Shown piece after piece: positions 4,704-22,230 of a stretch of DNA of 50,352 nucleotides. Position 1 is the stretch's first letter; every line of letters begins with the position of its first letter. Below the pieces are notes generated by a model that saw nothing but the letters and a program-made list of their open reading frames with translations, was not told the origin of the DNA and made no database searches. The position numbers and the translations under genes are program-made. The stretch comes from a virus, in the IMG/VR virus record IMGVR_UViG_3300032323_000429, positions 1 through 50,352 of that record; one strand, written 5' to 3'.

Positions 4704-4907
4704 TTAGATGCCAGAACGAACGTAACCCATGGCAAAGCCATTGGTAGAACCAGACGAGTTGCGAGTGGTTTTACCAGACATAGTAGACTTAGGTGCTTTG
4801 CGAGGTTTCACTTGTTCAATCGTGCCACCACGTGCAAGGAATTCTTGCAGAGCCTCAGAAGTCTCAGTACGAACTTGGGATTTGGTTTTGTAGATAGTTG
4901 CTTGCAT
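4704..4907 (-). CDS. Small basic phage protein, 67 aa
   Basis: AGAGGAA precedes the ATG at 4907. It has a short helical head (TSEALQEFLARGGTIEQV) with an FLxxGG(T/K)I pattern found in small phage proteins, then a basic, probably flexible tail (KPRKAPKSTMSGKTTRNSSG). Nucleic-acid contact is possible but unproven. Confidence 0.65.
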   Translation of the reverse strand: MQATIYKTKSQVRTETSEALQEFLARGGTIEQVKPRKAPKSTMSGKTTRNSSGSTNGFAMGYVRSGI

Positions 4908-4926
4908 GATATATTCCTCTTTCAAA

Positions 4927-5127
4927 TTAAACAAAGTCGTAGGCAGTTTCGGCACCAACACGGGAGATGATGATACCACACTTCAATTTCTTCAACAAAG
5001 CAGTCTCCAGTTTCACAGCATCAGGAACCGAACACTCAACAAACAGCGAACCATTGGTGAACGCTGCTGTAACATCAGAACCCAAAACCACTGCCACTTC
5101 AACCAACACGTCTTTTTCGAAGCTCAT
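4927..5127 (-). CDS. Small phage protein, 66 aa, first gene after an early promoter
   Basis: Reads MSFEKDVLVEVAVVLGSD at the start. Three ATG codons in a row occur (5133, 5130, 5127). The last is best spaced from AAGGAA at 5134-5139; an ATG at 5151 lacks a ribosome site. Alternating beta/helix pattern, unknown function. It is the first gene downstream of promoter P1 (5159-5187), so it is likely made early. Confidence 0.65.
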   Translation of the reverse strand: MSFEKDVLVEVAVVLGSDVTAAFTNGSLFVECSVPDAVKLETALLKKLKCGIIISRVGAETAYDFV

Positions 5128-5158
5128 CATCATTTCCTTTTTCTCATTCATTACAGTT

Positions 5159-5187
5159 ATTATACATCAGGTACGAATAAAAGTAAA
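5159..5187 (-). promoter_or_regulatory. Early sigma70-like promoter P1
   Basis: On the minus strand -35 TTTACT (5182-5187) and -10 TATAAT (5159-5164) are separated by 17 bp. The spacer and the AACTGTA after the -10 are almost the same as in P2 to P4. It lies directly after a stem-loop terminator and before the 66-aa gene. Confidence 0.85.
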
Positions 5188-5200
5188 CACCTAAATGAGA

Positions 5201-5229
5201 AAAACCCTACACTCGGTAGGGTTATTTTT
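5201..5229 (-). terminator. Intrinsic terminator, stem-loop of promoter cassette 1
   Basis: 8-bp perfect stem AACCCTAC/GTAGGGTT with loop CGAGT, followed on the minus strand by TTTTTC. It ends transcription from the Lsm-like gene just before promoter P1. The A-rich other flank could let it work on both strands. Confidence 0.8.
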
Positions 5230-7941: not shown

Positions 7942-8889
7942 TCACTTGAACTTGCAGTTAGCCATGATCTCAGTCAAAGCAGCCATGATATTTAGCTCAT
8001 GGTCAGCGACGAATGCAGCTTTGTACTGATAGTCGGCAAGGATAAGAATCAACTGAGGGATGCTTGCTGGTTCCATATTGGCAGTTGCAGTATCGTACAA
8101 TTGACGGAACAAAGAAACAGAATCTGCATCAGAGTTTTTACCAACCCAAGTACGCACAGCAGTAAAGTCTTTGTCCTTCATAGACTTGACTAGGGCTTTG
8201 TATGATTCTTCGCTTACGTTGACCAGAATACCAGTATCAATCTTACCTGATACAGAGTAACGCTGAAGTTCGTTCAAGATACGGCGATAGTCAGGGAAGT
8301 GTTTGCCAATCAATTCAGCAACGACTTGTGGGTCGAACTCAACACCTTCGGTCTTAAGAATCTGAGCAACACGCTTGTAGAACGACACGATAATGTCTTT
8401 CTTTTCGGCAGTGTCAATCTTGAATTCAATAACAGCGCATCGGCTGTGGAGAGGTTCAATGATACGGTTTTTGAAGTTACATGTCAGAATGAAACGACAG
8501 TTCTGGCTGAACTCTTCAATGAACGCACGCAACGCTGGTTGAGTAGAGTTGGGGTTCAGGTAATCAGCTTCGTCTAGGATGACGACTTTCTTAGCATCAG
8601 TCAGCGATACGCTGGACGCAAAAGACTTGATCTTGGTGCGCAGAACGTCAATACCAGATTCTTCCGAACCGTTAATGAACATGTACTCAGCGCCAATCTC
8701 ATTGCACAGTGCTTTGGCAATGGTAGTCTTACCAGTACCTGCAGTACCACACAAGAGGAAGTTAGGCAACTCACCCTTGCTAACGTATTCCTTGAAAGTC
8801 TTCTTCAAAGACTCAGGCAATACACAATCATCAATCTTCTGTGGACGGTACTTCTCAACCCACAAAAACATTTCATCACGAACTTCCAT
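7942..8889 (-). CDS. 44: Clamp loader large subunit gp44 (AAA+ ATPase)
   Basis: 315 aa, as in T4 (319). P-loop GTAGTGKT at 48-55, Walker B DEAD at 106-109, and the SRC arginine-finger motif at 149-151 all match clamp-loader ATPases. It assembles with gp62 to load gp45 on primer-template ends. I chose the ATG at 8889 because GGAG lies 6 bases before it; the ATG at 8901 follows the terminator T-run and has no ribosome site. Confidence 0.95.
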   Translation of the reverse strand: MEVRDEMFLWVEKYRPQKIDDCVLPESLKKTFKEYVSKGELPNFLLCGTAGTGKTTIAKALCNEIGAEYMFINGSEESGIDVLRTKIKSFASSVSLTDAKKVVILDEADYLNPNSTQPALRAFIEEFSQNCRFILTCNFKNRIIEPLHSRCAVIEFKIDTAEKKDIIVSFYKRVAQILKTEGVEFDPQVVAELIGKHFPDYRRILNELQRYSVSGKIDTGILVNVSEESYKALVKSMKDKDFTAVRTWVGKNSDADSVSLFRQLYDTATANMEPASIPQLILILADYQYKAAFVADHELNIMAALTEIMANCKFK

Positions 8890-8903
8890 AGCATTCTCCA
8901 TAA

Positions 8904-8937
8904 TAAAAAAGGACAGGGGTAATTATACCACCTGTCC
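8904..8937 (-). terminator. Intrinsic terminator between genes 45 and 44
   Basis: GGACAGG/CCTGTCC stem around 13 bases, followed on the minus strand by TTTTTTATT. It probably lowers read-through, so that the clamp is made in excess of the loader. This is inference from position. Confidence 0.75.
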
Positions 8938-8951
8938 GAACACAAAGCAAA

Positions 8952-9614
8952 TTAGAAACTGAAGGTGGAATCAGCTTCAACTGCTACATAATAAACCAGT
9001 TCGCTAGTGCTAGCTTTGAAACGAGAGATCTTCTTGCTAGAGATGCTAACGATGTAATCACCTGGAAGCATCTTCATGTTTTCAACTTTCAAGTTCGCTT
9101 GGAAAGTTTTGTCAGTAGAACCAACATGAGCATTGTAGCTGTTGCCAGTCAGGTTCTTTTTATCACCAACTTGAACAACGATCTTATCACCATCACCGAT
9201 AATCTGCAAGTCAGTTGCACGAAGGACTGATGCAGTGCGGTGAATCATGTTCAACATAGTTGATGTCAAAGTGAATTCAATTTCTGCTTCTGGGAAAGAG
9301 ATCTTGCGAGTAGGAACAGTCAACACAGATGCGTCAGCTGCAAAATACTTGATGGAGTTGCCACCTTCTTTGATGGTCACAAACTTCTCACTGAACTCCA
9401 ACTCTGGGTCATTGAACAAAGACATTGCGCCGAGGAATTCGTTCAAGTCATAGATACCAAAGTCACGTGGGAAGGTTTCAGTTACAGTAGTGTCAGACAT
9501 GACATTCTTTTGTGCACTGATTGTTGAGATCTCGTTGCCTGACTTCAAGAGGATGTTGCTGTTAATGCCAGCGAAGTTCTTGAACAGGTTTACGGTTTCT
9601 TTGCTTAGTTTCAT
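8952..9614 (-). CDS. 45: Sliding clamp gp45
   Basis: 220 aa (T4: 228). Begins MKLSKETVNLFKNFAGINSN, typical of gp45; two-domain clamp fold expected with a trimeric ring. It tethers gp43 to DNA and, in T4, also activates late transcription with gp55 and gp33. AGGAG precedes the ATG. It is driven by its own consensus promoter (9659-9687) and followed by a terminator. Confidence 0.95.
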   Translation of the reverse strand: MKLSKETVNLFKNFAGINSNILLKSGNEISTISAQKNVMSDTTVTETFPRDFGIYDLNEFLGAMSLFNDPELEFSEKFVTIKEGGNSIKYFAADASVLTVPTRKISFPEAEIEFTLTSTMLNMIHRTASVLRATDLQIIGDGDKIVVQVGDKKNLTGNSYNAHVGSTDKTFQANLKVENMKMLPGDYIVSISSKKISRFKASTSELVYYVAVEADSTFSF

Positions 9615-10080: not shown

Positions 10081-10623
10081 TTACCAATCTGAACTTGGAC
10101 CAGAGTCTGACGAACTAGAACTCCAGCTTGAAGAACTATCACTGGAACTAAATGAAGATGATGCAGACTTACGGCTGTCATCATCATCGAATCCCCACGA
10201 ACTTGAACTTGAGGATTCTGTTTTTGGAAAGTCAATTGGACTTGACCCACCAGACTTGTGCGTGATTGAATCAACAACACTATCAATTAACATTCCAGTC
10301 AACATGCCAGTAACAAAACCATCATCTGACGAGGCAGTAGTTGTAGTTGTGCTTTTAGCGTTTGACGTGGAGTAGGTTGGGGTGTATTTCTTTGTGGTTT
10401 CTTTTCCACGTGGAGGAACAGAACTTGTGTTCTTGACAGCTGACTCCAGAGATTTGGCACGCATAGATTGACGCCAAATACGAGTCTGTTCAATTTGACG
10501 ATCTCGTTCTTGCGCTTCCAGTGCAGCTTTCTCGGCTGAACGACGAAGGAACCAACGAACTGCCAGAGTGACAAAAGTCACCCCAGCAAGTACTGCAATA
10601 ATTGCTAGGATATCTTCCATCAT
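10081..10623 (-). CDS. Membrane-anchored protein with Ser/Asp/Trp-rich tail
   Basis: 180 aa. The N-terminal segment (ILAIIAVLAGVTFVTLAVRW, about residues 5-24) is a likely membrane anchor, followed by a basic helix and a Thr/Ser-rich linker. The last ~45 residues are mostly Ser with Asp and Trp, ending SDSGPSSDW. The Ser-Asp-Trp tail is reminiscent of tails on some bacterial inner-membrane proteins. No enzyme motif. The start overlaps the stop of the 56-aa gene. Confidence 0.7.
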   Translation of the reverse strand: MMEDILAIIAVLAGVTFVTLAVRWFLRRSAEKAALEAQERDRQIEQTRIWRQSMRAKSLESAVKNTSSVPPRGKETTKKYTPTYSTSNAKSTTTTTASSDDGFVTGMLTGMLIDSVVDSITHKSGGSSPIDFPKTESSSSSSWGFDDDDSRKSASSSFSSSDSSSSWSSSSSDSGPSSDW

Positions 10624-10792: not shown

Positions 10793-11608
10793 TTATTTTC
10801 CTACATTCAGAACAGGAGTTTGACCATTCAACACCAGAGTGCCACCTTTGAACTGAGCAATAGATTGAGCAGTGATTTTAGCAGCTTCAGCTTGCATCAT
10901 TCGAGTTTGGGCATCCATATATTGGATAGCACCTTGGTTCTGAGCCAGTGCTTGAATACGTTCAGCTTCAAGTTTAGCAGTACGAACTTCAGCTTCTTTC
11001 TGTTTGGTTTCGTTCTTGGCACGAACCAACTCATTGGCACTTGCTACAACAGAATCAGCAGGAACGATTTGACGAATCAAAACTTGGGTAATGCTAATAG
11101 TACCATCCAACTTCTCATCGGCAAGAGTTTTAGTGACAAGTTCTCGCACTTCAGCTTCCATTGCGGCACGATTGTCGCCCATGTTCAGCGCTTCGTACTT
11201 ACGAGCAGATTTGTAAACAGCGTTACGAGTTGCGTTGAAGATGTAGTTATACATCAAGTAAGTATCACCGTTGTGTGTAGCATGGAACGATTTGTTCTTA
11301 GTGTTATACAACTCAGCGATTTGGCTTTGATTGATGTTGTAGATAACAGTCAAGTCAAAGTCTTTCATTGTGGAGTTATCGCTGGCTTGTGGAGCGAGGT
11401 CATCAACCTTCACAGCAACTTCTTTGACAGGGAAAGTCATAACCGAACCGATAAGAGTTTGGTTAAAAGAACCTGGAAGCAATTCCTCATTCTTAACTTG
11501 TTTGTCGAAACCAACACGGAGACCAACTTCACCAGTCTCGATTCGAGTACATGCTTGAAGAGCAGCAACAGCCAAGATCAAAGCACCAATTTTCATAAAC
11601 GATTTCAT
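10793..11608 (-). CDS. SPFH/prohibitin-like lipoprotein
   Basis: 271 aa. The N-terminus has a signal peptide with lipobox LQAC (C20), so the mature protein is probably a lipid-anchored periplasmic or outer-face protein. The TRIETGEVGLRVGFDKQV segment, followed by a beta-rich core and a long Ala/Glu-rich helix (about 175-250), matches the SPFH (stomatin/prohibitin) family. Prohibitin-like genes are known in T4-like marine phages. AAGGA supports the ATG at 11608; a TTG two codons upstream is less likely. A role at the host envelope is inferred. Confidence 0.8.
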   Translation of the reverse strand: MKSFMKIGALILAVAALQACTRIETGEVGLRVGFDKQVKNEELLPGSFNQTLIGSVMTFPVKEVAVKVDDLAPQASDNSTMKDFDLTVIYNINQSQIAELYNTKNKSFHATHNGDTYLMYNYIFNATRNAVYKSARKYEALNMGDNRAAMEAEVRELVTKTLADEKLDGTISITQVLIRQIVPADSVVASANELVRAKNETKQKEAEVRTAKLEAERIQALAQNQGAIQYMDAQTRMMQAEAAKITAQSIAQFKGGTLVLNGQTPVLNVGK

Positions 11609-11617
11609 AATCAATCC

Positions 11618-12563: not shown

Positions 12564-12824
12564 TTAGGTACGAGTGAACGCTTGTGCGCCCATAACTGCA
12601 TTGGCAATTTGAACCATCTTGCGAGAAGGTTTGCCAATACGGTACTTAGTAGTTTCAGTACCATCAGCGAGAACTGCCTTGTTGCTGTATACACAATGAC
12701 CTTGATTGCGCAACTGGTGAATAGCATCATGTGGGTTCTTCAAACCAAATGAGCCAGCGATCTGCTTTGCAGTAACTTCAGCACCAGTGCTTAGGTAATT
12801 GAGTAGTTTAGCTTGCTTGGACAT
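12564..12824 (-). CDS. Winged helix-turn-helix protein, 86 aa
   Basis: The segment AEVTAKQIAGSFGLKNPHDA followed by IHQLRNQGHCVYSN reads as helix-turn-helix plus wing. A basic tail KPSRKMVQIANAVMG follows. It would bind DNA; whether it regulates phage or host genes is unknown. GGAG before the ATG. It is flanked by a strong terminator upstream and a hairpin downstream. Confidence 0.7.
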   Translation of the reverse strand: MSKQAKLLNYLSTGAEVTAKQIAGSFGLKNPHDAIHQLRNQGHCVYSNKAVLADGTETTKYRIGKPSRKMVQIANAVMGAQAFTRT

Positions 12825-12902: not shown

Positions 12903-13355
12903 TTAAACTTCGATACCGTTGGCACGTAGAATGTCGTTGAAGTCCTCGACGTCTTCATCAACGTATTCGCTCTCGTCGATGATACGTTGCAGTCGGGATT
13001 CACCGTTATCTTTAGTGACAGCAGTCTTTGAAGTCACCTTAGGAGTCTTGGCTTTTACAGCCTTCACTTTTGCAACCTTAGCTTTAGGCGCAGACGCTTG
13101 AGCAAAGTCGCTCAGTTCTTGCGCAGTAGGCAAAGGCAGTTGGTAAACACCCTTCTCGACTTTGTTGGCTTTGAACAACCAGTTAGGATAACCGATCTTC
13201 ACGCCACCCGCAGTACGCTTTGCAGCGAGATCTTGGGTGATGGCAACAACTTCTTTCAGAGTGATTCGACCATCCTTAGTCAAAGAGGGAGTGTGCTCGA
13301 TAAGAGCCACAACGCATTTTTGCTGGGAGAGGGTCAGGTTTGCAAATTTCAACAT
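12903..13355 (-). CDS. Small protein sharing an N-terminal domain with the adjacent MoxR-like ATPase
   Basis: 150 aa, starting MLKFANLTLSQQKCVVALIE with AAAGGA ahead. Residues 1-75 look like a winged-helix domain; PNWLFKANKVEKGVYQL (57-73) is very similar to PKWLMQNRVGRGLYAI in the ATPase encoded just upstream. Residues 85-115 are a Lys/Ala-rich histone-like linker; the C-terminus is acidic (YVDEDVEDFND). DNA or ATPase binding is inferred. It is driven by promoter P2. Confidence 0.75.
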   Translation of the reverse strand: MLKFANLTLSQQKCVVALIEHTPSLTKDGRITLKEVVAITQDLAAKRTAGGVKIGYPNWLFKANKVEKGVYQLPLPTAQELSDFAQASAPKAKVAKVKAVKAKTPKVTSKTAVTKDNGESRLQRIIDESEYVDEDVEDFNDILRANGIEV

Positions 13356-13392
13356 AATAAAGTCCTTTCGGTTTCTCAATTTCAATACAGTT

Positions 13393-13421
13393 ATTATACA
13401 TCAGATGCGAATAAAAGTCAA
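13393..13421 (-). promoter_or_regulatory. Early promoter P2
   Basis: -35 TTGACT (13416-13421), -10 TATAAT (13393-13398), 17-bp spacer nearly identical to P1 and P3. Upstream is an imperfect CCCC/AGGG hairpin at about 13436-13456. It drives the 150-aa gene. Confidence 0.85.
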
Positions 13422-13445
13422 CATCTTTTTGTAATAACCCTACAC

Positions 13446-14591
13446 TTAGAAGGGGATTTCTTCGTCAGGAGTAGGGGCTACAGGAGGCACAGGTGCAACA
13501 GCCTCTGGCTCGGGGTTAGAAACCTTCTCGAAGAGGTCGATGAATGCAGCCTTGGTAGCCGTGTCGAAACGGTTACAGCAAAGTTCTACAGCCTTCTCAC
13601 GCTTCTTAAAGATTGCAAACGCACGAACAATGTGGATCATACGACGAGTTGTAATGGTCTCGTCGACGCCACCGTCTTCAAAAGTACGACGGATAGCTTC
13701 AGCCCACTTCACCAATGTCTCGGCGAATTCTTCATCAACGCAGCCGTAAGTCTCCATGAGATTCTTGATGATCTTCACTTCAACTTTAGCGTTGGGATAT
13801 TCTTGTTCAAAGGTTACAGCGAAACGCTCGAGGAACGCTTCGTTCAGCACGTTGGTACCGATGTAACGACCATCGTCTGAGCCTTTGCCCTTAGTGTTTG
13901 CAGTGGCAAGGATGTTGAAGCCAGCTGCAGGAACGATCATTTCGTTCTTGAGTTTGAAGTAGTATGGCTTACCTTCAAGAATTGGTTGCAAGCACAACAG
14001 AGTGTTAGCGGAGCCAGCATCGATCTCGTCCAACAGGAGAGTCGTACCATTGCGCATTGCAATCAGCACTGGACCTTCTACCACTTCCACGTTACCATCT
14101 TCCAGAGTCTTGGAGCCGATGAGTTGTTCTTCGTCAGTCATCATGTTCAGGTTAACACGAATGAGTGGCTTCTTGTGCTTGGCACAAATTTGTTCGACCA
14201 TGGTAGACTTACCATTACCAGTCGGACCAGAGATGTATGCAGGATAGAAAATACCTGACTTGATAATCTGTTCAACTTCGGGGTGGTTGCCGAATGGAAC
14301 GTAGTTGTCATCTTTCTTAGGGATGAGCGACTCAACATTTGAGTAGTCAACAGCGAATGACTGCATTGCTTCTTCTTTCGTAACAGCGTTGGACTTGGTG
14401 CCAGAGATGGCATACAAGCCACGACCGACTCGGTTTTGCATCAACCACTTCGGGGATGTCTTCGTGCCGAGCACACGCATGGTTTCCAGAAGCTGGGAAT
14501 TTTGGACAGTGCCAGTGGTGGCAACATCAGGGAACATCTCGTGAAGTTTCGATTCAAACTGCTCACGGAACACGGTATCAACTTTACTCAT
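13446..14591 (-). CDS. cobS: MoxR/CobS-like AAA+ ATPase
   Basis: 381 aa. P-loop GPTGNGKS at 122-129, Walker B LLLDEID at 185-191, ATANTKGKG sensor-1-like segment, and an LERF box typical of MoxR/CobS AAA+ proteins. The N-terminal ~65 residues form an extra domain shared with the 150-aa protein. CobS proper drives cobalt insertion into cobalamin with CobT; phage homologues are common in T4-like phages and their role is not settled. Its likely partner, a VWA protein, is encoded one gene upstream. The tail is Pro-rich. GGAG supports the ATG at 14591, and promoter P5 lies 30 bases before it. Confidence 0.85.
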   Translation of the reverse strand: MSKVDTVFREQFESKLHEMFPDVATTGTVQNSQLLETMRVLGTKTSPKWLMQNRVGRGLYAISGTKSNAVTKEEAMQSFAVDYSNVESLIPKKDDNYVPFGNHPEVEQIIKSGIFYPAYISGPTGNGKSTMVEQICAKHKKPLIRVNLNMMTDEEQLIGSKTLEDGNVEVVEGPVLIAMRNGTTLLLDEIDAGSANTLLCLQPILEGKPYYFKLKNEMIVPAAGFNILATANTKGKGSDDGRYIGTNVLNEAFLERFAVTFEQEYPNAKVEVKIIKNLMETYGCVDEEFAETLVKWAEAIRRTFEDGGVDETITTRRMIHIVRAFAIFKKREKAVELCCNRFDTATKAAFIDLFEKVSNPEPEAVAPVPPVAPTPDEEIPF

Positions 14592-14620
14592 CACATTTCT
14601 CCATAATAAATCATACAACT

Positions 14621-14649
14621 ATTATACTGCAAGACCGAATTAAAGTCAA
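14621..14649 (-). promoter_or_regulatory. Early promoter P5 of the MoxR-like ATPase
   Basis: -35 TTGACT (14644-14649), -10 TATAAT (14621-14626), 17-bp spacer. The -35 overlaps the stop codon of the 69-aa gene, so no stem-loop stands in front. Confidence 0.8.
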
Positions 14650-14855
14650 GCACCTTCGTGCAATCTTTCGATACGTTCTTGGAACAGACGCATCATCTCG
14701 TTCTGCTTGTGTGCAGGAAGGTCAGCAATCAGCTGGACCAGAGTGGATTCGTAGTATCCAGCAACGTATGCATGGCTGCCGTAGACTTTGTTAGCTACAG
14801 AGGACAGGTTTCCCAGCTTTGCCGAGATATCGCAGTAAGGTACTTTCTTAGCCAT
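14646..14855 (-). CDS. Small helical phage protein, 69 aa
   Basis: MAKKVPYCDISAKLGNLSSV at the start with AGGAG ahead. Helical throughout, ending in LFQERIERLHEGA. It sits between promoters P3 (upstream) and P5 (overlapping its stop), separating the ATPase from the VWA gene. Unknown function. Confidence 0.7.
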   Translation of the reverse strand: MAKKVPYCDISAKLGNLSSVANKVYGSHAYVAGYYESTLVQLIADLPAHKQNEMMRLFQERIERLHEGA

Positions 14856-14879
14856 TCTTTTCTCCTAATCAATACAGTT

Positions 14880-14908
14880 ATTATACATCAGGTAGGAATA
14901 AAAGTAAA
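14880..14908 (-). promoter_or_regulatory. Early promoter P3
   Basis: -35 TTTACT (14903-14908), -10 TATAAT (14880-14885), 17-bp spacer almost the same as in P1. The stem-loop at 14911-14927 directly abuts the -35. Confidence 0.85.
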
Positions 14909-14910
14909 CA

Positions 14911-14927
14911 CCCTACTTGCAGTAGGG
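14911..14927 (-). terminator. Stem-loop of promoter cassette 3
   Basis: CCCTAC/GTAGGG stem with a 5-base loop, immediately upstream of P3 and downstream of the VWA gene stop. The T-rich P3 -35 region follows. Same sequence family as the stem-loops at 5201 and 17385. Confidence 0.7.
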
Positions 14928-14945
14928 TTATTCGTTTACTTTCGT

Positions 14946-16598
14946 TTACGCAATATAACCGATAAATTGGTTCAGGAGAACCCGAGAAGTCTTACGACCA
15001 CTCATTTGCTTGGTGAACATACGTGCAATCTGGCGAGCATTTTGCTTTTCGTCAACCACCAACTCACCTTCATCAACACTCAGACGGTTTTGAGGAACGA
15101 TAAACAAGTCGTCACGACCAGTGTTCTTGATAGAGGCAAAGCCACTCTCACGGAACTCACGACGAATCGACTCGATCATCTGATCACTTGACTTGACGCC
15201 AGCAAGGTTGTTTTCGATAGCGCAACTCAACTCACGTCGAGCATTGCGGCAGATATAGAAACCAACAGTCTTGACATCGAAACGATCCTTCATCATACGC
15301 AGCAGGGCTTCGGTTTGAGTCGTACCCATGCGAGTGATAGGATAGTCTTTCTTCGTGACTGGATCTTTCAAGAAGTTCTTGACTTGAACAGTGGTATGAG
15401 TATTGTAGTCATACTTGCGATCTTCAAGATAACGACCAGAAGAAACTGGCAACGAACCACCCTCACCATCGGTCAAAGTGATCAGAGACATTTTCTCCAC
15501 GTTGTGGCTCTTGGCAAACTTAGGCAAGTAACCCAACAAGTACGACAAGGATTCATTCAGCGGAGTGCCACCCATCTCGTAACCATCACAACGCATGAGG
15601 TAGTGACTACGGAAAGTGCGACGAACCATTGTATTGAATTCCATGTTGCTCATCTTAGACGAGAACAATTCAAGCAAGCCAAACGAACTGTTAACAGCGT
15701 TGCCAAGGACATTCTCTTTTGACATCACTTCCAACTGTTTTGCACGCAGCTTCTCACGTTCGTACTCACCTTTGAAGATGTCGTACTGAGTGGTGAATGC
15801 AAACACTTGGTAAGGGATCTGAGCGCGTTGGCAGAACATCGCCAAGTTGATCACTTGTTGCATAGTGTCGTCGATGACGTACTGCATTGAGCCAGACCAG
15901 TCAAGCAAGAAAATCATGCCATGGTTCTTACCCTTTGGAATCATCGTAACACGTTTGAACAAGTCGTCATTGAGTTTGTATGACCACACCTTACCCATGT
16001 CCAGAGAACCAATCTTAGAAGTCTGAGCACGTTTGTACAGCTGAGCAGACTTACGCATCTCGAATTCTTTGATCAGGTAGTTTACAACACGACCAGATTC
16101 GACTTTGAATTGTTCCAGTGCTTTCTTGTCAGAAGAACTGAACATCTCTTCATCAATGATTTTGGTTTCTTCGATGATAGTCTTGTAAGAAACTACAGGA
16201 TCGATAAAGTGGTTTTCATCAAGAGTGAAATAGTTGTATTCGGTTTTGCCATCAGCAAGTTCTTCCAGCTTCTCCGAGAAGGTTTTCTCAGTGGTGGCTT
16301 CAACTTCTTTCTCAACGTCTTCAGCGATCTGTTCTTCAACAGTCTTCTTTTGATCGTAGTGACGACCAGCCATGTACTTGCGTACATCAGCGTCTTCAAG
16401 TTCATCGTTTTCGTCTTGAGTTTCCTCGACAGAAGGCACTTCAGAACCATCAGTCCATTCGTCTTGCTCATCCATGCTAGCCTCAGCCAACATTTCTTCC
16501 ATATCTTCCAAGTCTTCTTTGTTGAGTTTCAGAGACTCTTTCTTACGTTGAGTGGCTTGTTCCTTAGAGTATTGGTATACTTCAGCTGCCAACGCCAC
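14946..16598 (-). CDS. cobT: VWA-domain (CobT-like) protein, C-terminal part after a frameshift
   Basis: 550-residue reading frame. After an acidic linker (residues 30-115), a von Willebrand A domain follows, with the metal-ion site DWSGSM at 233-238 and later TDGEGG. It continues, with a -1 shift, the protein begun at 17107: no ribosome site precedes 16598, and the reading frame upstream of it (EFVNRVEKTETVEDVVALAA) is an in-frame extension. Together the two parts would give a protein of about 720 aa. VWA proteins work with MoxR/CobS ATPases, one of which is encoded downstream. Confidence 0.75.
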   Translation of the reverse strand: MALAAEVYQYSKEQATQRKKESLKLNKEDLEDMEEMLAEASMDEQDEWTDGSEVPSVEETQDENDELEDADVRKYMAGRHYDQKKTVEEQIAEDVEKEVEATTEKTFSEKLEELADGKTEYNYFTLDENHFIDPVVSYKTIIEETKIIDEEMFSSSDKKALEQFKVESGRVVNYLIKEFEMRKSAQLYKRAQTSKIGSLDMGKVWSYKLNDDLFKRVTMIPKGKNHGMIFLLDWSGSMQYVIDDTMQQVINLAMFCQRAQIPYQVFAFTTQYDIFKGEYEREKLRAKQLEVMSKENVLGNAVNSSFGLLELFSSKMSNMEFNTMVRRTFRSHYLMRCDGYEMGGTPLNESLSYLLGYLPKFAKSHNVEKMSLITLTDGEGGSLPVSSGRYLEDRKYDYNTHTTVQVKNFLKDPVTKKDYPITRMGTTQTEALLRMMKDRFDVKTVGFYICRNARRELSCAIENNLAGVKSSDQMIESIRREFRESGFASIKNTGRDDLFIVPQNRLSVDEGELVVDEKQNARQIARMFTKQMSGRKTSRVLLNQFIGYIA

Positions 16599-17107
16599 AA
16601 CGTCTTCAACAGTCTCAGTCTTTTCAACACGGTTGACAAACTCTTTTTCTTCAGGTGTAATTTAACACCACAGCTGAAACCAGCTTTGAAGTAAAGATTG
16701 ATACGGTCGATAAGGTTGAGTGTGGAAAGGTCTTGAACCTTCTTAACACCAAAGAAGTCTCGCTCATTCAACTCTTGGTAGCCAAGAGTCATGGTCTTGC
16801 GAATCCCTGGATACTTGCGCTTCATTAGCTTTTCAATACGCACGTCTTCGATGACGTTCATATAGCTACGCAGTTTCGGGTCTTCTTTGATTGGGTCAAT
16901 GTAACCATCGGTGGTGTACAATGCGTGACCCACTTCGTGTCCGATTAGCATGCCCTCTACGATAGGGGACATATCCTTCCATTGCGGTAAGGTCAAGACA
17001 CGGTTCTTGATGTCAAACGATGCAGTGCTGACACGTGCACGGATGACAGCAATGTTCTCGGTAGCCAATAGTTTGGCATAAATTTCTGCAGCATTCACGT
17101 TGCTCAT
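16529..17107 (-). CDS. cobT: CobT-like metallopeptidase/VWA protein, N-terminal part, frameshifted
   Basis: 192-residue frame. Residues 1-148 are the genuine start: MSNVNAAEIYAKLLATENIA, a zinc-peptidase-like HEVGH at 57-61, then NVIEDVRIEKLMKRKYPG, a combination found in CobT-like proteins. After GFSCGVK the frame turns into basic nonsense, while the -1 frame continues sensibly (ITPEEKEFVNRVEK) into the VWA part. The shift site is near 16659-16664. A sequencing or assembly indel at AAAA is as likely as a real split. It has its own early promoter P6. Confidence 0.75.
   Translation of the reverse strand: MSNVNAAEIYAKLLATENIAVIRARVSTASFDIKNRVLTLPQWKDMSPIVEGMLIGHEVGHALYTTDGYIDPIKEDPKLRSYMNVIEDVRIEKLMKRKYPGIRKTMTLGYQELNERDFFGVKKVQDLSTLNLIDRINLYFKAGFSCGVKLHLKKKSLSTVLKRLRLLKTLWRWQLKYTNTLRNKPLNVRKSL
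16659..16665 (-). other. Frameshift site in the CobT-like gene
   Basis: Minus-strand TTAAATT: one extra A (AAAA) would join both halves in one frame. The sequence is not a standard X-XXY-YYZ slippery heptamer in the reading phase used. Confidence 0.6.
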
Positions 17108-17131: not shown

Positions 17132-17317
17132 TTAATTATACTCTAGTTCGGAATTAAAGTCAACAGGGAATGCAAGGCTGTACTCGTATTCCTCGATCAT
17201 GGTTTCGACTTCTTCACGGTTTGCAAGTTGCAAACTTTCGTTGAAGATGATATAGTCTTGCAAACCATAGCTGCCAGCGAGGGTAGCGAGTTCGTAGTCA
17301 GAAAAGTCATTCCACAT
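17132..17317 (-). CDS. Small conserved phage protein, 61 aa
   Basis: MWNDFSDYELATLAGSYGLQ at the start, with GGGAG six bases before the ATG at 17317. Acidic, helical; resembles short proteins in T4-like phages. It is placed between promoters P4 (upstream) and P6 (inside its 3' end), just like the 69-aa gene. Unknown function. Confidence 0.7.
   Translation of the reverse strand: MWNDFSDYELATLAGSYGLQDYIIFNESLQLANREEVETMIEEYEYSLAFPVDFNSELEYN
17136..17164 (-). promoter_or_regulatory. Early promoter P6 of the CobT-like gene
   Basis: -35 TTGACT (17159-17164), -10 TATAAT (17136-17141), 17-bp spacer. It lies within the coding end of the 61-aa gene. Closest to P5 (both have TTGACTTTAATTC). Confidence 0.8.
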
Positions 17318-17340
17318 AGTGTCTCCCATTCAATACATTG

Positions 17341-17369
17341 ATTATACATCAAGTACGAATAAAAGTAAA
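17341..17369 (-). promoter_or_regulatory. Early promoter P4
   Basis: -35 TTTACT (17364-17369), -10 TATAAT (17341-17346), 17-bp spacer nearly identical to P1. It follows the stem-loop after gene 46 and drives the 61-aa gene. Confidence 0.85.
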
Positions 17370-17384
17370 CACCTATGTGGAAAG

Positions 17385-17403
17385 ACCCTACAGGTCGTAG
17401 GGT
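17385..17403 (-). terminator. Stem-loop of promoter cassette 4, end of gene 46
   Basis: 7-bp stem ACCCTAC/GTAGGGT with a 5-base loop, overlapping the last base of gene 46; TCTTTCC follows. Same family as the other cassette stem-loops. Confidence 0.7.
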
Positions 17404-19121
17404 TATGGGGCAGCGATAACAGAGAAGTCGTTTCGCTTCTCAAATTTGATTACAGAGCGGAACTTGTCGAACAGCTGATCGCCTTTGTGAGAGATAACGA
17501 AGATGTTTGAGTTCTCACCGAAGCTGTTCATCAGGTTCAAGAAGTAATCAGTACCTGCCGTATCGAGAGAAGAGTCAAAGATTTCATCAAGCAACAGAAG
17601 GTTAGTGTTTACTGAGTTCTTCATCTTTGCCACTTGACGCCATGTGAACAAGATTGATAAGTCGATACGCATCTTCTCACCCTCAGAGAAACTTGCGTAA
17701 GTAAAGTCGTCACGGAAACGTGACTTAACTTTCTCATTGAATGATTCATCAAGTTCAAAGTGAATGTAAGCATCCATTGCTTGAAGGTACTTGTTGATCA
17801 ACTTGTTCATCACTGGTAGGTACTCACGAATGATAGCAGTCTTGATACCAGTGTCTTTCAAGAGAGCAGCAGCAACTTCTTCTAGATTACGTTGTTCTTG
17901 AAGAGTAGTCTTGACTTTGATTTTGTCAAGTGCATTCTGAGCAAGTTCTTTCAACTTACGTTTTTCTTCATCCACGTTAGTGGTATCAGATTTATGTTCT
18001 TCAATTTCGCTTTGAAGTTCAGCGTTCTGCTTGTTCAACAAAGTGATGGTACTATTGTGAGTAGACATCTCAATGTTCTTGTCAGTGATCACGTTGAGTA
18101 CTTCATTGATTTCAGACAACTGAGAGTTCAGCTTAGTGAGAACAGTTTCCAGTTCTTCAATCTTAGTGTTATTGTCGTCGATCTTAGAGTTCAAGTCCTT
18201 GAGAATACTTTGCTTGTGGGCATCAGGGATATCTTGCGAGCAGCTTGGGCATACATCGTTTTCAGTAAAGAACTCCGAGTGATGCGTGCAATGTTCAATC
18301 TTGGCATCGAGTTTTGAACGAATTGATTTCGCTTTTTCAATTTGCGTATCAACATCACTCTTTTTCGCAGATTGTGATTTGAGTGTGGTAATCTCAGCAA
18401 CCAGTTCAGCCACCTTTGCTTCGCTGGAGAGTATTTGTTCGTTATTAGTTTGGACTTTAGCCAGTAACGACTCAATAGCGTCTGACTTGGCAGCTGTAAG
18501 AGTCTTAATGAGTAGAGTCTGTCCTTCCACTTGAGTCTTCGCAGTCGCAACTTCCCCCTCAATCCTCTTGATATCGTCACGTGTCTCATTGGCTTTTTCT
18601 TTCAACAACTGATTCATGGTAGAGAAGATGCGGATATCAAGGATGTCCTCAATAACTTCTCGACGTTGGTAGCTGGTGAGCTGCATGAATGGAACAAACG
18701 AGGCTGAACCCAAGATAACCACTTGTGTGAATGTCTTGTAATTCAAACGCAGGATTTGTTGCTCAAGTGCTTTCTGATAATCTTTGGCAGCAGCATCTTG
18801 ATTCATCAGTTCATCGTTACACCAAATTTCAAAGATGTTTGGTTTGATACCACGAACAACTTTATACTCTTTGCCATTGGCAGAGAACTCAATGGTAACA
18901 AGTGTTCCCTTACCATTGATTGAATTGATCAGTTGGTTTTTATTGATGTTGCGGAAAGGCTTGCCGAATAAGGCAAAGCAAAGGGCATCCAGAATAGTGG
19001 ATTTACCCTCACCGTTCTTGCCGATGATTAGTGTGGTTGAGGACTTGTTTAGAAGAACCTTGTTCGCAGAGTTACCTGTTGATAAAAAGTTCTTCCATTC
19101 AATGCTCTTAAAAACGATCAT
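17403..19121 (-). CDS. 46: Recombination endonuclease subunit gp46 (SbcC/Rad50-like)
   Basis: 572 aa (T4: 560). Walker A GKNGEGKS at 34-41, long coiled-coil arms, zinc-hook CPSC at 291-294 in the middle, ABC signature FSEGEKMR, and Walker B LLLLDEIFDSS near the C-terminus. With gp47 it resects double-strand ends for recombination-dependent replication and helps degrade host DNA. Start overlaps the 110-aa gene (ATGA). Confidence 0.95.
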   Translation of the reverse strand: MIVFKSIEWKNFLSTGNSANKVLLNKSSTTLIIGKNGEGKSTILDALCFALFGKPFRNINKNQLINSINGKGTLVTIEFSANGKEYKVVRGIKPNIFEIWCNDELMNQDAAAKDYQKALEQQILRLNYKTFTQVVILGSASFVPFMQLTSYQRREVIEDILDIRIFSTMNQLLKEKANETRDDIKRIEGEVATAKTQVEGQTLLIKTLTAAKSDAIESLLAKVQTNNEQILSSEAKVAELVAEITTLKSQSAKKSDVDTQIEKAKSIRSKLDAKIEHCTHHSEFFTENDVCPSCSQDIPDAHKQSILKDLNSKIDDNNTKIEELETVLTKLNSQLSEINEVLNVITDKNIEMSTHNSTITLLNKQNAELQSEIEEHKSDTTNVDEEKRKLKELAQNALDKIKVKTTLQEQRNLEEVAAALLKDTGIKTAIIREYLPVMNKLINKYLQAMDAYIHFELDESFNEKVKSRFRDDFTYASFSEGEKMRIDLSILFTWRQVAKMKNSVNTNLLLLDEIFDSSLDTAGTDYFLNLMNSFGENSNIFVISHKGDQLFDKFRSVIKFEKRNDFSVIAAP

Positions 19122-19450
19122 TTATCTTTCCATTCCCAACCAAAGAATACTTTGGTCATTTTACGATGCAACCAGTTTGGTCGCTGTTCACGCCACACTT
19201 GAATATCTTTACCAATTGCCCAGTGACCGACTGCCTTTGGGTCTGGTTTGAATTGTAAAGATGCTGTAGTAGCCCAAGTTGTATCAGTAATCCCATTACC
19301 AGCAATCAAATACTGACCACTAGAGGTGATAGAATCAGTAAGCCACTTCTTACGCTTTGCTTCTTCAAATTCATTACAAGGTTTGTAATCTAAGTCAAGA
19401 TCAATCTGCTCAGTGAGCGGATAGAAATACTTAATCTCAAGTTGATGCAT
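19118..19450 (-). CDS. Conserved protein between 47 and 46, 110 aa
   Basis: Starts MHQLEIKYFYPLTEQIDLDL and ends in a Trp-rich stretch (WHRK-like: NWLHRKMTKVFFGWEWKDK). T4 also has small genes between 47 and 46. No motif. It overlaps gene 47's stop by one base and 46's start by four, so it is co-translated with the nuclease. Function unknown. Confidence 0.75.
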   Translation of the reverse strand: MHQLEIKYFYPLTEQIDLDLDYKPCNEFEEAKRKKWLTDSITSSGQYLIAGNGITDTTWATTASLQFKPDPKAVGHWAIGKDIQVWREQRPNWLHRKMTKVFFGWEWKDK

Positions 19451-20505
19451 CAGACAACCTCAATGTTGACAGCTTCCGTATAAAGAGACTTCATAAAAGT
19501 CTTTACCATTTCTTTATCAACGTCAGTCTCAACAGTATCAATGTAGTGAGAGAGAACAGACATCGTGTCTTCAAGATTGATTTCTTCGCCAATTTCACCA
19601 TCAGAAAACTCTGACATGTCTTCAACGATCTTAATCTCGTGACATCCTTTATTATACAACTTCTGAGTGAACTTGTCAAATTTATAATAGTCAGTCTTGT
19701 TTACAACAACCAGCTTGACGAAACAATTTTTCAGATCCAATGCGTCGAGGTCGATTGGATCTTTTTCTTTGTCGTCGTACTCGACTCGGGCAAACACCGA
19801 ATAAGGATTTCGGATGAAGTCAAGTTCTCTTGTTCCGAGATCGAACAAATGAAACCCTCTGGAATCGTTATAGTCCTGCCATGTAAGTTCGTAGGGGTTT
19901 CCAAGGTAGTAGATGTGTCCGTCATCAGACTTGTGATGATAATGCCCACTAAAAACAACGTCGAACTTATTAAAAAGATCTTTAGACAAACCCTCATGAC
20001 TTTCCATTCCTCGGTACATGGCAAACCCAGCAATTTCAAAGTGACCCATACAGATGTCTGCTTTGGTATCCTTCATCGTATCAATTGAATCTTGATAGTT
20101 CTCAGGACAAATCCAAGGCATCATACAGATCGGAGTTTCATCAACATAGATTGTCGCTGGGTGATCAATCACGTTGATGTTATCATACTCACGCAAGAGT
20201 AGATCGGGAGAGTTTACATCGTTAGTGTTTTTGTAATAAGTGTCGTGATTGCCAGCCAGCATATGAACAGTAATGTTACGCTGTGCTAACTTATCAAAGA
20301 ACATATCCTTGGCACGTTGCAGAGAATAGAAGTTTACATACTTGCGTCGATCAAAAGTGTCACCAAGGATAAGAACAGTATCAATATTGTTTTCATCCAA
20401 CGTAGGAAAGAACACGTTATCGTAAAACTTCTCAAAGAAGTCTAGGAAAACTAGACTGTCGTTACGAGCACCAAAGTGCTGGTCTGTGATGATTGCGACT
20501 TTCAA
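19450..20505 (-). CDS. 47: Recombination endonuclease subunit gp47 (SbcD/Mre11-like)
   Basis: 351 aa (T4: 339). Metallophosphoesterase motifs in order: D8-x-H10, GD at 48-49, GNHD at 85-88, GHFE and SGHYHH, which bind two manganese ions. It is the nuclease partner of gp46. The start is a TTG at 20505 overlapping the upstream stop (TTGA). An internal ATG would cut away the first metal motif, so the TTG is required. Confidence 0.95.
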   Translation of the reverse strand: MKVAIITDQHFGARNDSLVFLDFFEKFYDNVFFPTLDENNIDTVLILGDTFDRRKYVNFYSLQRAKDMFFDKLAQRNITVHMLAGNHDTYYKNTNDVNSPDLLLREYDNINVIDHPATIYVDETPICMMPWICPENYQDSIDTMKDTKADICMGHFEIAGFAMYRGMESHEGLSKDLFNKFDVVFSGHYHHKSDDGHIYYLGNPYELTWQDYNDSRGFHLFDLGTRELDFIRNPYSVFARVEYDDKEKDPIDLDALDLKNCFVKLVVVNKTDYYKFDKFTQKLYNKGCHEIKIVEDMSEFSDGEIGEEINLEDTMSVLSHYIDTVETDVDKEMVKTFMKSLYTEAVNIEVV

Positions 20506-21692
20506 ATGAATCCTACCTTTCGGTTAGTTGCGGCAACAGCAGCGTGAGTTTGTTTGTTGAAGATCTCAGCAATGCTCCAAGACTTTTGTTTACCGTCAAT
20601 AGTTACACCTAATTTAGTAGCCAGTGCTTCAGCTTCTTCTTGTGACAGCGGAGCAAAAGTCACAATGTCAAAACAACGTCCTGGACGAACCAGCGCAGAG
20701 TCAATGTCACGGATGCTTGGCAGGTTGGTAGAGAAGATCATCTTCTTACCCTTTGTAGTCACAAGTCCATCACCCACGTTCAAGAAACGGTGCATCATTG
20801 TGTTGCCATCGCTGCGTGACTTCAAGAATGCGTCAGAGTCTTCAAGAACCATAACGCCAGTGTCGTCTTCAATAAAGCGAGCAAAGAAACCATCCTTCTC
20901 AAGAATGCCTGCATCGTATGTGACGATGGCGCTTGAGTTTGTGTGTGATAGCAAACCACGAATGAACGTAGTCTTGCCTGTTCCTGGAGGTCCAATCAGG
21001 AGAAGGATGTTTGCGTTGGAGTTCATGTAGCGGTCGTAGTACGATTCCAGAGACTCACCGTTCAGGAATGGGTACATTTCTGCGCAGGGCAGACGCTCAC
21101 GGTTCAGTGGCACGTTGACAGAGTTGCCATCGCTAGAGTAGATCCACTCAATGTATGATGTAACTACGCTGAAGTTAGATTCAACGATCTGGAGAACACC
21201 TTCGCAAAAGTCAACATCACCAAAAACACGAACAGTGGTAGAGTTGGAGTTTACAGAGTATGTGATGTAGTTGTCAGAGAGTTCTTCAATGATAAAGCCA
21301 GAGGATGCATTACCTTGTACAAACAAGTCTCCCTTAAAGTTTTCTTCTGCCCAACTCGACCATTTTTGACGGTTTGCCAATACAGTAGTCTCACGGTGCA
21401 CTGTTTGTTTACCAGCGTCCACTCGACGCTTCAACAGTTCGCTAGTGATCAGGTCATCAAAGTCAGACACACCCAAGAAGATTTTGTTTTCAGTTTCATT
21501 GTTCATATATGTATTCATGTTTACCATGTTGTCTATTGCTTCATAGGTGAATCGCTTTAGAGTTCTTTTTGAACCCCTCGCTATCCTGCGCCTACGGTTG
21601 CGGTTAGTGCTGGCTCTTGGTGTATAAGATATTCCAGAACCATTACTGAGGTTCCGAATCATCTCCCGAACTGATTGATTCACCGTACTCAT
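20502..21692 (-). CDS. AAA+ ATPase with novel N-terminal region
   Basis: 396 aa. P-loop GPPGTGKT at 234-241, Walker B VMVLEDSD, sensor-1 FSTNLP and an arginine-finger LVRPGRCFD, an arrangement like BCS1/FtsH-type AAA proteins. The first 230 residues have an Arg-rich stretch (NRNRRRRIARGSKRT) and no fold I recognise. AGGTG precedes the ATG at 21692, which lies inside the end of gene 55 (50-bp overlap). A protein-remodelling role is inferred from the ATPase class. Confidence 0.8.
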   Translation of the reverse strand: MSTVNQSVREMIRNLSNGSGISYTPRASTNRNRRRRIARGSKRTLKRFTYEAIDNMVNMNTYMNNETENKIFLGVSDFDDLITSELLKRRVDAGKQTVHRETTVLANRQKWSSWAEENFKGDLFVQGNASSGFIIEELSDNYITYSVNSNSTTVRVFGDVDFCEGVLQIVESNFSVVTSYIEWIYSSDGNSVNVPLNRERLPCAEMYPFLNGESLESYYDRYMNSNANILLLIGPPGTGKTTFIRGLLSHTNSSAIVTYDAGILEKDGFFARFIEDDTGVMVLEDSDAFLKSRSDGNTMMHRFLNVGDGLVTTKGKKMIFSTNLPSIRDIDSALVRPGRCFDIVTFAPLSQEEAEALATKLGVTIDGKQKSWSIAEIFNKQTHAAVAATNRKVGFI

Positions 21693-22230
21693 TTTTGTCA
21701 CCTATAAATTCATCTAAGTTGCTTGTGGCTTTTTTGTTCTTTTTCTTGGCAGCTTTTGCAGCGTAGAATTCTTCGCCACTGTCAAGAGAAGTTGATTGCA
21801 TATAATCTATGTAAGCATTGTGATAAGTTCCATCTTCATCTTGTTCCTGCAACTCAAACATCTCGAACGGCATGTCTTTGATCAGCTTGTTCTTAATGTA
21901 TGATTGTTTCTTTTCTTTGGCAATACGTCTCAAGAACGCATAAAAGATAATCTGCGTGAAATAAGCAAAGGGATTATTTGACTTGTTGGGGTCAAAGTTG
22001 TCAATGTACTGAATGCAGTTTTCGATCCCGTCTAGGATCATGTCATCCTTGTACGAGTAGTTGATGAAGTTAGGCTTGTACGAAAGGTGAGTGGCGATCT
22101 TTAAGATGCACTCCCCGATGTAGTTGCTTACCTGCGGTTTCTCAGCACCACTTTCTTCTGCTTCTAAAACCTTTTGTTTGTATTCTTTGATAGCTGCTAA
22201 AAAGTCAGCGTTGTTAACGTAATGCGCCAT
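21643..22230 (-). CDS. 55: Late transcription sigma factor gp55
   Basis: 195 aa (T4: 185). The region NPFAYFTQIIFYAFLRRIAK with preceding YKDDMILDGIENCIQYI matches gp55, a minimal sigma factor that binds the host core polymerase and recognises the late -10 TATAAATA. The C-terminus is acidic and low complexity. A small CTGGT/ACCAG hairpin lies just before its AGGAAA ribosome site. Driven by its own promoter at 22267-22295. Confidence 0.9.
   Translation of the reverse strand: MAHYVNNADFLAAIKEYKQKVLEAEESGAEKPQVSNYIGECILKIATHLSYKPNFINYSYKDDMILDGIENCIQYIDNFDPNKSNNPFAYFTQIIFYAFLRRIAKEKKQSYIKNKLIKDMPFEMFELQEQDEDGTYHNAYIDYMQSTSLDSGEEFYAAKAAKKKNKKATSNLDEFIGDKNEYGESISSGDDSEPQ

Follow-up and report, generated by a model that had tools for sequence, protein, structure and literature searches.

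A CobS-like ATPase and its VWA partner

We analyzed a window of 50,352 bases, IMG/VR virus record IMGVR_UViG_3300032323_000429, which comes from a T4-like freshwater phage and carries a cassette built around a CobS-like ATPase, a protein that joins an HEVGH motif to a von Willebrand factor A (VWA) domain, and a small protein resembling the N-terminus of the ATPase. The cassette genes all lie on the minus strand. In the direction of transcription they open with a 65-aa open reading frame (ORF), after which come the HEVGH-VWA gene, then a 69-aa ORF, the ATPase and the small protein; an 86-aa helix-turn-helix (HTH) protein follows the cassette. An earlier note on this DNA had listed a 150-aa protein (12903..13355) and a CobS/MoxR-like AAA+ ATPase (13446..14591); both are present on the minus strand, and plus-strand translation at the coordinates it gave runs into many stops. 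We compared the cassette with loci of its uncultured clade, which were selected by their CobS, and with sequenced phages.

The ATPase (381 aa, phrog_249) contains a Walker A motif, GPTGNGKS (14205-14228, minus strand), a Walker B motif, LLLDEID (14019-14039, minus strand), and a CbbQ-type lid, the motifs being invariant or near-invariant across 30 sequences. Pfam places PF07728 (AAA_5) on it at 4.3e-17 and PF08406 (CbbQ_C lid) above the cut-off. Against the PDB, its profile finds midasin (4.7e-38), the solved CobS (2e-29) and CbbQ (3.9e-14), and a fold search with its predicted model, weak beyond the N-terminal domain, gave NorQ-NorD and CbbQ as best matches (1.8e-9). These comparisons support a MoxR-type AAA+ ATPase with an adjacent VWA partner that bears an HExxH, as the earlier note had held. 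Scanning with the single ATPase sequence turned up no relatives in cells; scanning with the VWA family alignment returned 29 loci, mostly contigs of metagenome-assembled genomes with no clear host.

The partner (phrog_459) consists of a zincin-like half (16529..17107, minus strand; HEVGH at 16925-16939) and a VWA half (14946..16598, minus strand; metal ion-dependent adhesion site [MIDAS] DWSGS at 15888-15902). The two motifs were correctly reported before, but 14946-17107 is not one ORF in this record: the halves occupy different frames, the HEVGH frame being left near 16659. The nearest relative, L003, whose proteins are 98-99% identical, has GTCAAATTCACACC where the window has GTTAAATTACACC, leaving the window one base shorter near 16,659. 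In relatives L150 and L151 the protein is a single ORF of 722 and 720 aa, respectively, and the only other clade locus with the halves in separate ORFs, L053 (L053:3722-5871), breaks at a different place. The break is therefore likelier to stem from a private mutation, or from an error in sequencing or assembly, than from programmed frameshifting, which we rejected as the likely cause since the extra base is present in the near-identical L003 and a single ORF of ~720 aa is the norm.

Across 40 diverse members of the HEVGH-VWA family, residues H56, E57, H60, N83, E86, D87 and R89 are invariant, as is the complete MIDAS set (D400, S402, S404, T512 and D544). The HExxH together with N83, E86, D87 and R89 is compatible with a putative zinc peptidase, and the conserved residues and the single ORF of 720-722 aa in relatives describe a VWA domain fused to an N-terminal HExxH metallopeptidase-like domain. 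The strict invariance of the HExxH speaks against reading this partner as the cobaltochelatase subunit CobT, which is not known for an HExxH.

A stand-alone copy of the ATPase N-terminal domain

The small protein (150 aa) has a winged-helix-like N-domain (residues about 1-77), a basic Lys/Ala-rich linker (78-118, isoelectric point 10.1) and an acidic end (isoelectric point 4.1) with the conserved pattern SRLQ..IDES..VDEDVEDFN.ILR.NGIEV. Its N-domain had been said to match the N-terminus of the ATPase, and profile comparison bears this out. With hhalign, the small-protein and CobS N-terminal profiles match across 54 columns at a probability of 96.9% (E 1.5e-10); none of 30 column-shuffled controls exceeds 1.5%, and the reversed profile gives 0.7%. 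Other segments of CobS and of the VWA protein score at most 1.1% against the small-protein profile, except the overlapping CobS segment 31-110, which holds the same WL...VGRGLYAI motif. In the ATPase the homologous domain spans residues 1-63 (14403..14591, minus strand).

The same domain can be followed into other phages. The small-protein profile directly detects the N-termini of pelagiphage CobS proteins (E down to 9e-5; hhalign 97.2%), which in turn match those of cyanophage CobS at 96.7%, and in four of nine large relatives it has weaker placements at the start of cobS (E 0.008-0.02). Since its profile matches extend across CobS N-termini, the small protein is, as judged by these profiles, a paralogue of the N-terminal domain of phage CobS that stands on its own. 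In AlphaFold2 models both N-domains show the same winged-helix-like order of helix-helix-strand-helix-strand-strand, with a predicted local distance difference test (pLDDT) score mostly of 77-91 for the small protein and block means of 63-85 for CobS residues 1-60.

Searches of Pfam, PHROG and NCBIfam gave no assignment for the small protein, and its PDB sequence matches were at chance level only. VIT matches appear in 12 members of its family (best E 0.00036) and are probably driven by composition. Two candidates for further copies were set aside: the adjoining 86-aa HTH protein (12564-12824) has no profile support as a copy of the shared domain, and the cyanophage gene that follows cobS (T4-GC 152) was considered as a counterpart of the small protein, but the clade models fail to match it in Prochlorococcus phage P-HM2.

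An SSB-like tip ends the ATPase

The ATPase terminates in DEEIPF (13449..13466, minus strand), and 85 of 87 unique clade ATPases end in [DE][IV]PF. No other ORF examined has such an end (0/7176 and 0/5317). Entropy anchored at the C-terminus is 0.09, 1.15, 0 and 0 bits over the last four positions, compared with about 1.6-2.8 bits over the preceding 20. The codons for Glu, Pro and Phe in the tip vary synonymously, so it is the residues, and not the DNA, that are held. A degenerate DNA pattern for the tip has one proper site per genome in 9/9 large relatives, about 60-140 bases before the small gene, which by position is the end of cobS; a tenth match was discarded because it reads TGG instead of a stop.

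The tip of bacterial single-stranded DNA-binding protein (SSB) is DDDIPF (PMC5872125). Like it, the clade ATPases close a variable linker with one or more acidic residues, I or V, P and a final F. Unlike SSB, the bearer is an AAA+ ATPase and not a single-stranded DNA-binding protein, and the likeness is one of sequence. The gp32 of the phage was considered as a carrier of the same tip and rejected, as the tails differ.

Tip-like ends occur sporadically in distant lineages, as DDEIPF (L358), DDQVPF (L380) and DDNNVPF (L378). Endings of the form acidic-EVAF or -NVPF are frequent in the distant phage CobS proteins of the L380-like loci L462-L541, and an acidic tail closed by Phe seems to have arisen independently more than once.

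Promoters and gene order

We found near-identical sigma-70-like promoters predicted before all five genes of the cassette, with the pattern TT[GT]ACTTT[AT]ATTC...GTATAAT, a 17-base spacer, 10-11 of 12 consensus bases and 12-38 bases to the start codon. On the minus strand these lie at 13393..13421 for the small protein (TTGACT-17-TATAAT), 14621..14649 for the ATPase, 14880..14908 for the 69-aa ORF, 17135..17163 for the HEVGH-VWA gene and 17341..17369 for the 65-aa ORF. In relatives, the same type of promoter stands no more than 110 bases from the small gene in 61/150 loci, from cobS in 84/145 and from the VWA gene in 23/98, compared with an overall background of 2.8% per 110 bases on the sense strand. 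We also observed an 84-nt intergenic repeat at 5137-5220, 13371-13454, 14858-14941 and 17319-17402 (61-76% identity to the reference copy), which combines a sigma-70-like promoter with a CCCTAC...GTAGGG-type hairpin sequence; one copy lies away from the cassette, upstream of the ORF at 4704-4979.

The 65-aa ORF (17132..17329, minus strand), 5′ of the HEVGH-VWA gene, is present in 80 clade loci. An ORF similar to the 69-aa ORF (14646..14855, minus strand), which lies between the VWA and ATPase genes, is found in 16. With gp names assigned from sequence and synteny, the cassette is flanked by gp46 on one side and by gp45 and then gp44 on the other (gp46 and gp47 at 17403-20505; gp44 and gp45 at 7942-9614). 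Flanking is the same in P-HM2, whose order is gp46, ORF, peptidase, cobS, ORF, gp45, ORF, gp44. Head and tail genes of the window lie beyond about 25,000.

Other genes of the window include, between the cassette and gp45, a lipoprotein-family protein (phrog_200; 10793-11614, minus strand) and a protein that is rich in Ser and lacks a PHROG match (10081-10623, minus strand). A second AAA+ protein (phrog_14322, which has no assigned function; 20502-21701, minus strand) has the gp47-like gene on one side and the gene at 21643-22230 on the other. The tail sheath protein (31914-34340, minus strand) has 808 aa, and its matches to baseplate, fibre and other structural families, at residues of about 80-290, suggest inserted domains.

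Distribution of the three genes

Among the clade loci with enough sequence, the small protein lies downstream of cobS in 79/79 and the VWA protein upstream in 45/45. These counts describe one lineage because the clade loci are close relatives (at least 77% identity). Within the clade, the co-occurrence of the three genes is thus complete. Neither of the outcomes that the earlier note had named as refuting its view, N-terminal domains lacking profile similarity or genes that are never found together, was observed. Other T4-like phages do not share the co-occurrence: the ATPase/VWA pair of cyanophages and pelagiphages comes with no detected small protein, and the shared domain is seen there only as the ATPase N-terminus. 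A tblastn search of 50,697 records of sequenced phages gave no match to the small protein; every example found belongs to this uncultured clade.

In sequenced phages the two members of the pair go together. By name, the ATPase and the VWA protein have equal counts, with 365 Synechococcus, 61 Cyanophage and 24 Prochlorococcus records each, matched as name totals and not record by record. The VWA partner adjoins the ATPase gene in cyanophages and in pelagiphage HTVC008M, and the pair recurs (HEVGH, DNSGS) in a distant Rhizobium phage, where its neighbours are a sigma factor and DNA polymerase III alpha. Near the CobS-like ATPases of Staphylococcus phage K and Listeria phages, the neighbouring genes examined contain no HExxH or DxSxS.

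Possible functions of the cassette

The best reading of sequence and context is that the cassette may encode a machine acting in DNA replication or recombination. We tentatively propose, as a possibility held with some reserve, a MoxR-type remodeling machine for DNA metabolism with a docking N-domain, a small-protein adaptor or competitor, and an SSB-like tip. The CobS-like ATPase would form a ring, with the HEVGH-VWA protein as its VWA co-factor, whose zincin-type domain may cut or grip the substrate. The winged-helix-like N-domain of the ATPase would be a docking module, and the small protein, probably an adaptor or a competitor for the same dock, might alternatively tether the complex to nucleic acid through its basic linker. 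The acidic [DE][IV]PF tail, by imitating the tip of SSB, could bring the ring to the replication and repair proteins that bind SSB, or displace host SSB. Bacterial SSB recruits DNA-repair enzymes by such a tail, and this likeness favours a role in DNA replication over one in vitamin B12 synthesis. Of these elements, the sequences themselves show the fold families, the conserved catalytic and MIDAS residues, the shared domain, the tip, the promoters and the gene order, whereas the complex, the proteolysis, the binding by the tip, any DNA binding and the part played by the small protein are inferred. The more specific claim, that an AAA+ machine enters the bacterial SSB network through an SSB-mimicking tip, is steered by a free copy of its docking domain, and makes cyanophage 'cobS' a replication/repair remodeler and not a B12 gene, is doubtful as it stands.

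Several observations weigh against a machine for DNA metabolism. Adjacency to replication genes is no proof of function. Foldseek gave the small protein no significant match (best E 0.24), although winged helices (ORC, forkhead, SSV1 F-112) dominate the list, and the AlphaFold2 model of the ATPase is of low quality beyond the N-domain (mean pLDDT 58). The tip is absent from 74/74 HTVC008M-like ATPases and from the phage's own gp32; cyanophage ATPases have it in 0/65 (6 end in PF) and L380-like ATPases in 9/57. Because it is fixed in this clade only, the tip cannot explain a general role of the machine, and because it is absent, rare or sporadic elsewhere, it is a lineage feature on a generally acidic tail.

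That last property bears on a different view of the tail, in which it is a ligand within the complex or for a partner, such as the VWA MIDAS or gp45, and its likeness to SSB is a convergence with no SSB-related binding. VWA domains bind acidic side chains at their MIDAS, and acidic tails occur in all phage CobS groups surveyed, of which only some end in PF. We consider this unlikely, as the near-invariant P-F that closes the protein is a specific match to the SSB tip, while entropy is high in the rest of the tail.

Two further alternatives concern the job of the whole machine, and we regard each as rather improbable. Iyer et al. 2021 (PMC7824862), in the passages on this gene pair, describe a MoxR gene beside a vWA protein with an N-terminal metallopeptidase in group 2.2 jumbo phages and propose virion assembly. 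By analogy, the pair would be a chaperone-protease that assembles and trims structural proteins, and the same passages offer a precedent in an archaeal virus whose MoxR-vWA pair is required for tail formation. Against this, though more weakly than against cobalt chelation, stand the position of the cassette in the replication module, promoters that are sigma-70-like and not of the T4 late type, and an SSB-like tip with no obvious role in assembly. The second alternative is host takeover, in which the ATPase/peptidase would dismantle or degrade host complexes early, for example repair or defence enzymes bound to SSB, with the tip as lure and the small protein as adaptor. Host-type promoters, intact zincin residues and a tip in the style of host SSB, different from the tail of phage gp32, are all consistent with takeover. 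However, that the pair is conserved in cyanophages generally is suggestive of a core function rather than a host-specific one, and takeover comes with no known target.

Cobalt chelation is hardly credible: although Liu et al. 2021 (PMC8651126) named the pair cobST, considered cobT to be mis-annotated as cyanophage peptidase and proposed cobalamin synthesis with host CobN, and although CobS is the best NCBIfam match of the ATPase (3.3e-25) and CobT (PF06213) matches weakly at the HEVGH half (E 0.24), the ATPase scores 88.9 bits against a CobS equivalog (TIGR01650) cut-off of 558.55, PF06213 scores 11.3 against 26.1 bits with no match at E 0.01 among 40 VWA family members, the VWA family profile has no PDB match, CobN is found in 0/9 large relatives, and 8/9 of them encode the small subunit of a class I (B12-independent) ribonucleotide reductase. 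The absence of CobN agrees with the earlier note, which had seen no other cobalamin gene in the window.

Relation to known systems

The gene cobS belongs to the core of marine T4-like cyanophages (PMC3037559), and recent ecological work still assigns it to vitamin B12 metabolism (PMC9983427). Our results argue that 'cobS' is instead a MoxR-VWA machine among replication genes; if this is true, many calls of 'cobalamin' auxiliary genes in viromes need revising. The ATPase/VWA-zincin pair is already known, under the name cobST and also as a pair of MoxR and vWA-metallopeptidase. What this analysis adds, with no description found in a non-exhaustive literature search, is the N-domain protein that stands alone, the SSB-like tip fixed in the clade and the set of five matched promoters; the earlier note mentioned neither the tip, the shared promoters and the frame break nor the prior description of the pair. 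The SSB-like peptide tip and the free copy of the docking domain are two handles that make the function of 'cobS' testable.

The nearest known system is the cyanophage cobS/'peptidase' pair (phrog_249/phrog_459; T4-GC 150 and 146), a homologous ATPase (about 50% identity) and HEVGH-VWA protein that are likewise neighbours in the replication module; unlike the clade, the cyanophage genomes examined have no detected small protein, mostly lack the SSB-like tip and carry other short flanking genes. The pair of group 2.2 jumbo phages, compared by its description only, also sets a MoxR ATPase beside a vWA protein with an N-terminal metallopeptidase, and the passages of PMC7824862 that describe it mention neither a stand-alone N-domain protein nor an SSB-like tip. 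Cobaltochelatase CobS/CobT has an ATPase core distantly related to that of the phage pair, which differs in falling far under the CobS equivalog cut-off and in having neither CobN nor an above-threshold CobT match. With NorQ-NorD, CbbQ-CbbO and RavA-ViaA, the phage pair has in common an AAA+ core with a CbbQ-type lid and a VWA partner, whereas an N-terminal HExxH domain on the VWA protein and a winged-helix-like N-domain on the ATPase distinguish the phage system from all three.

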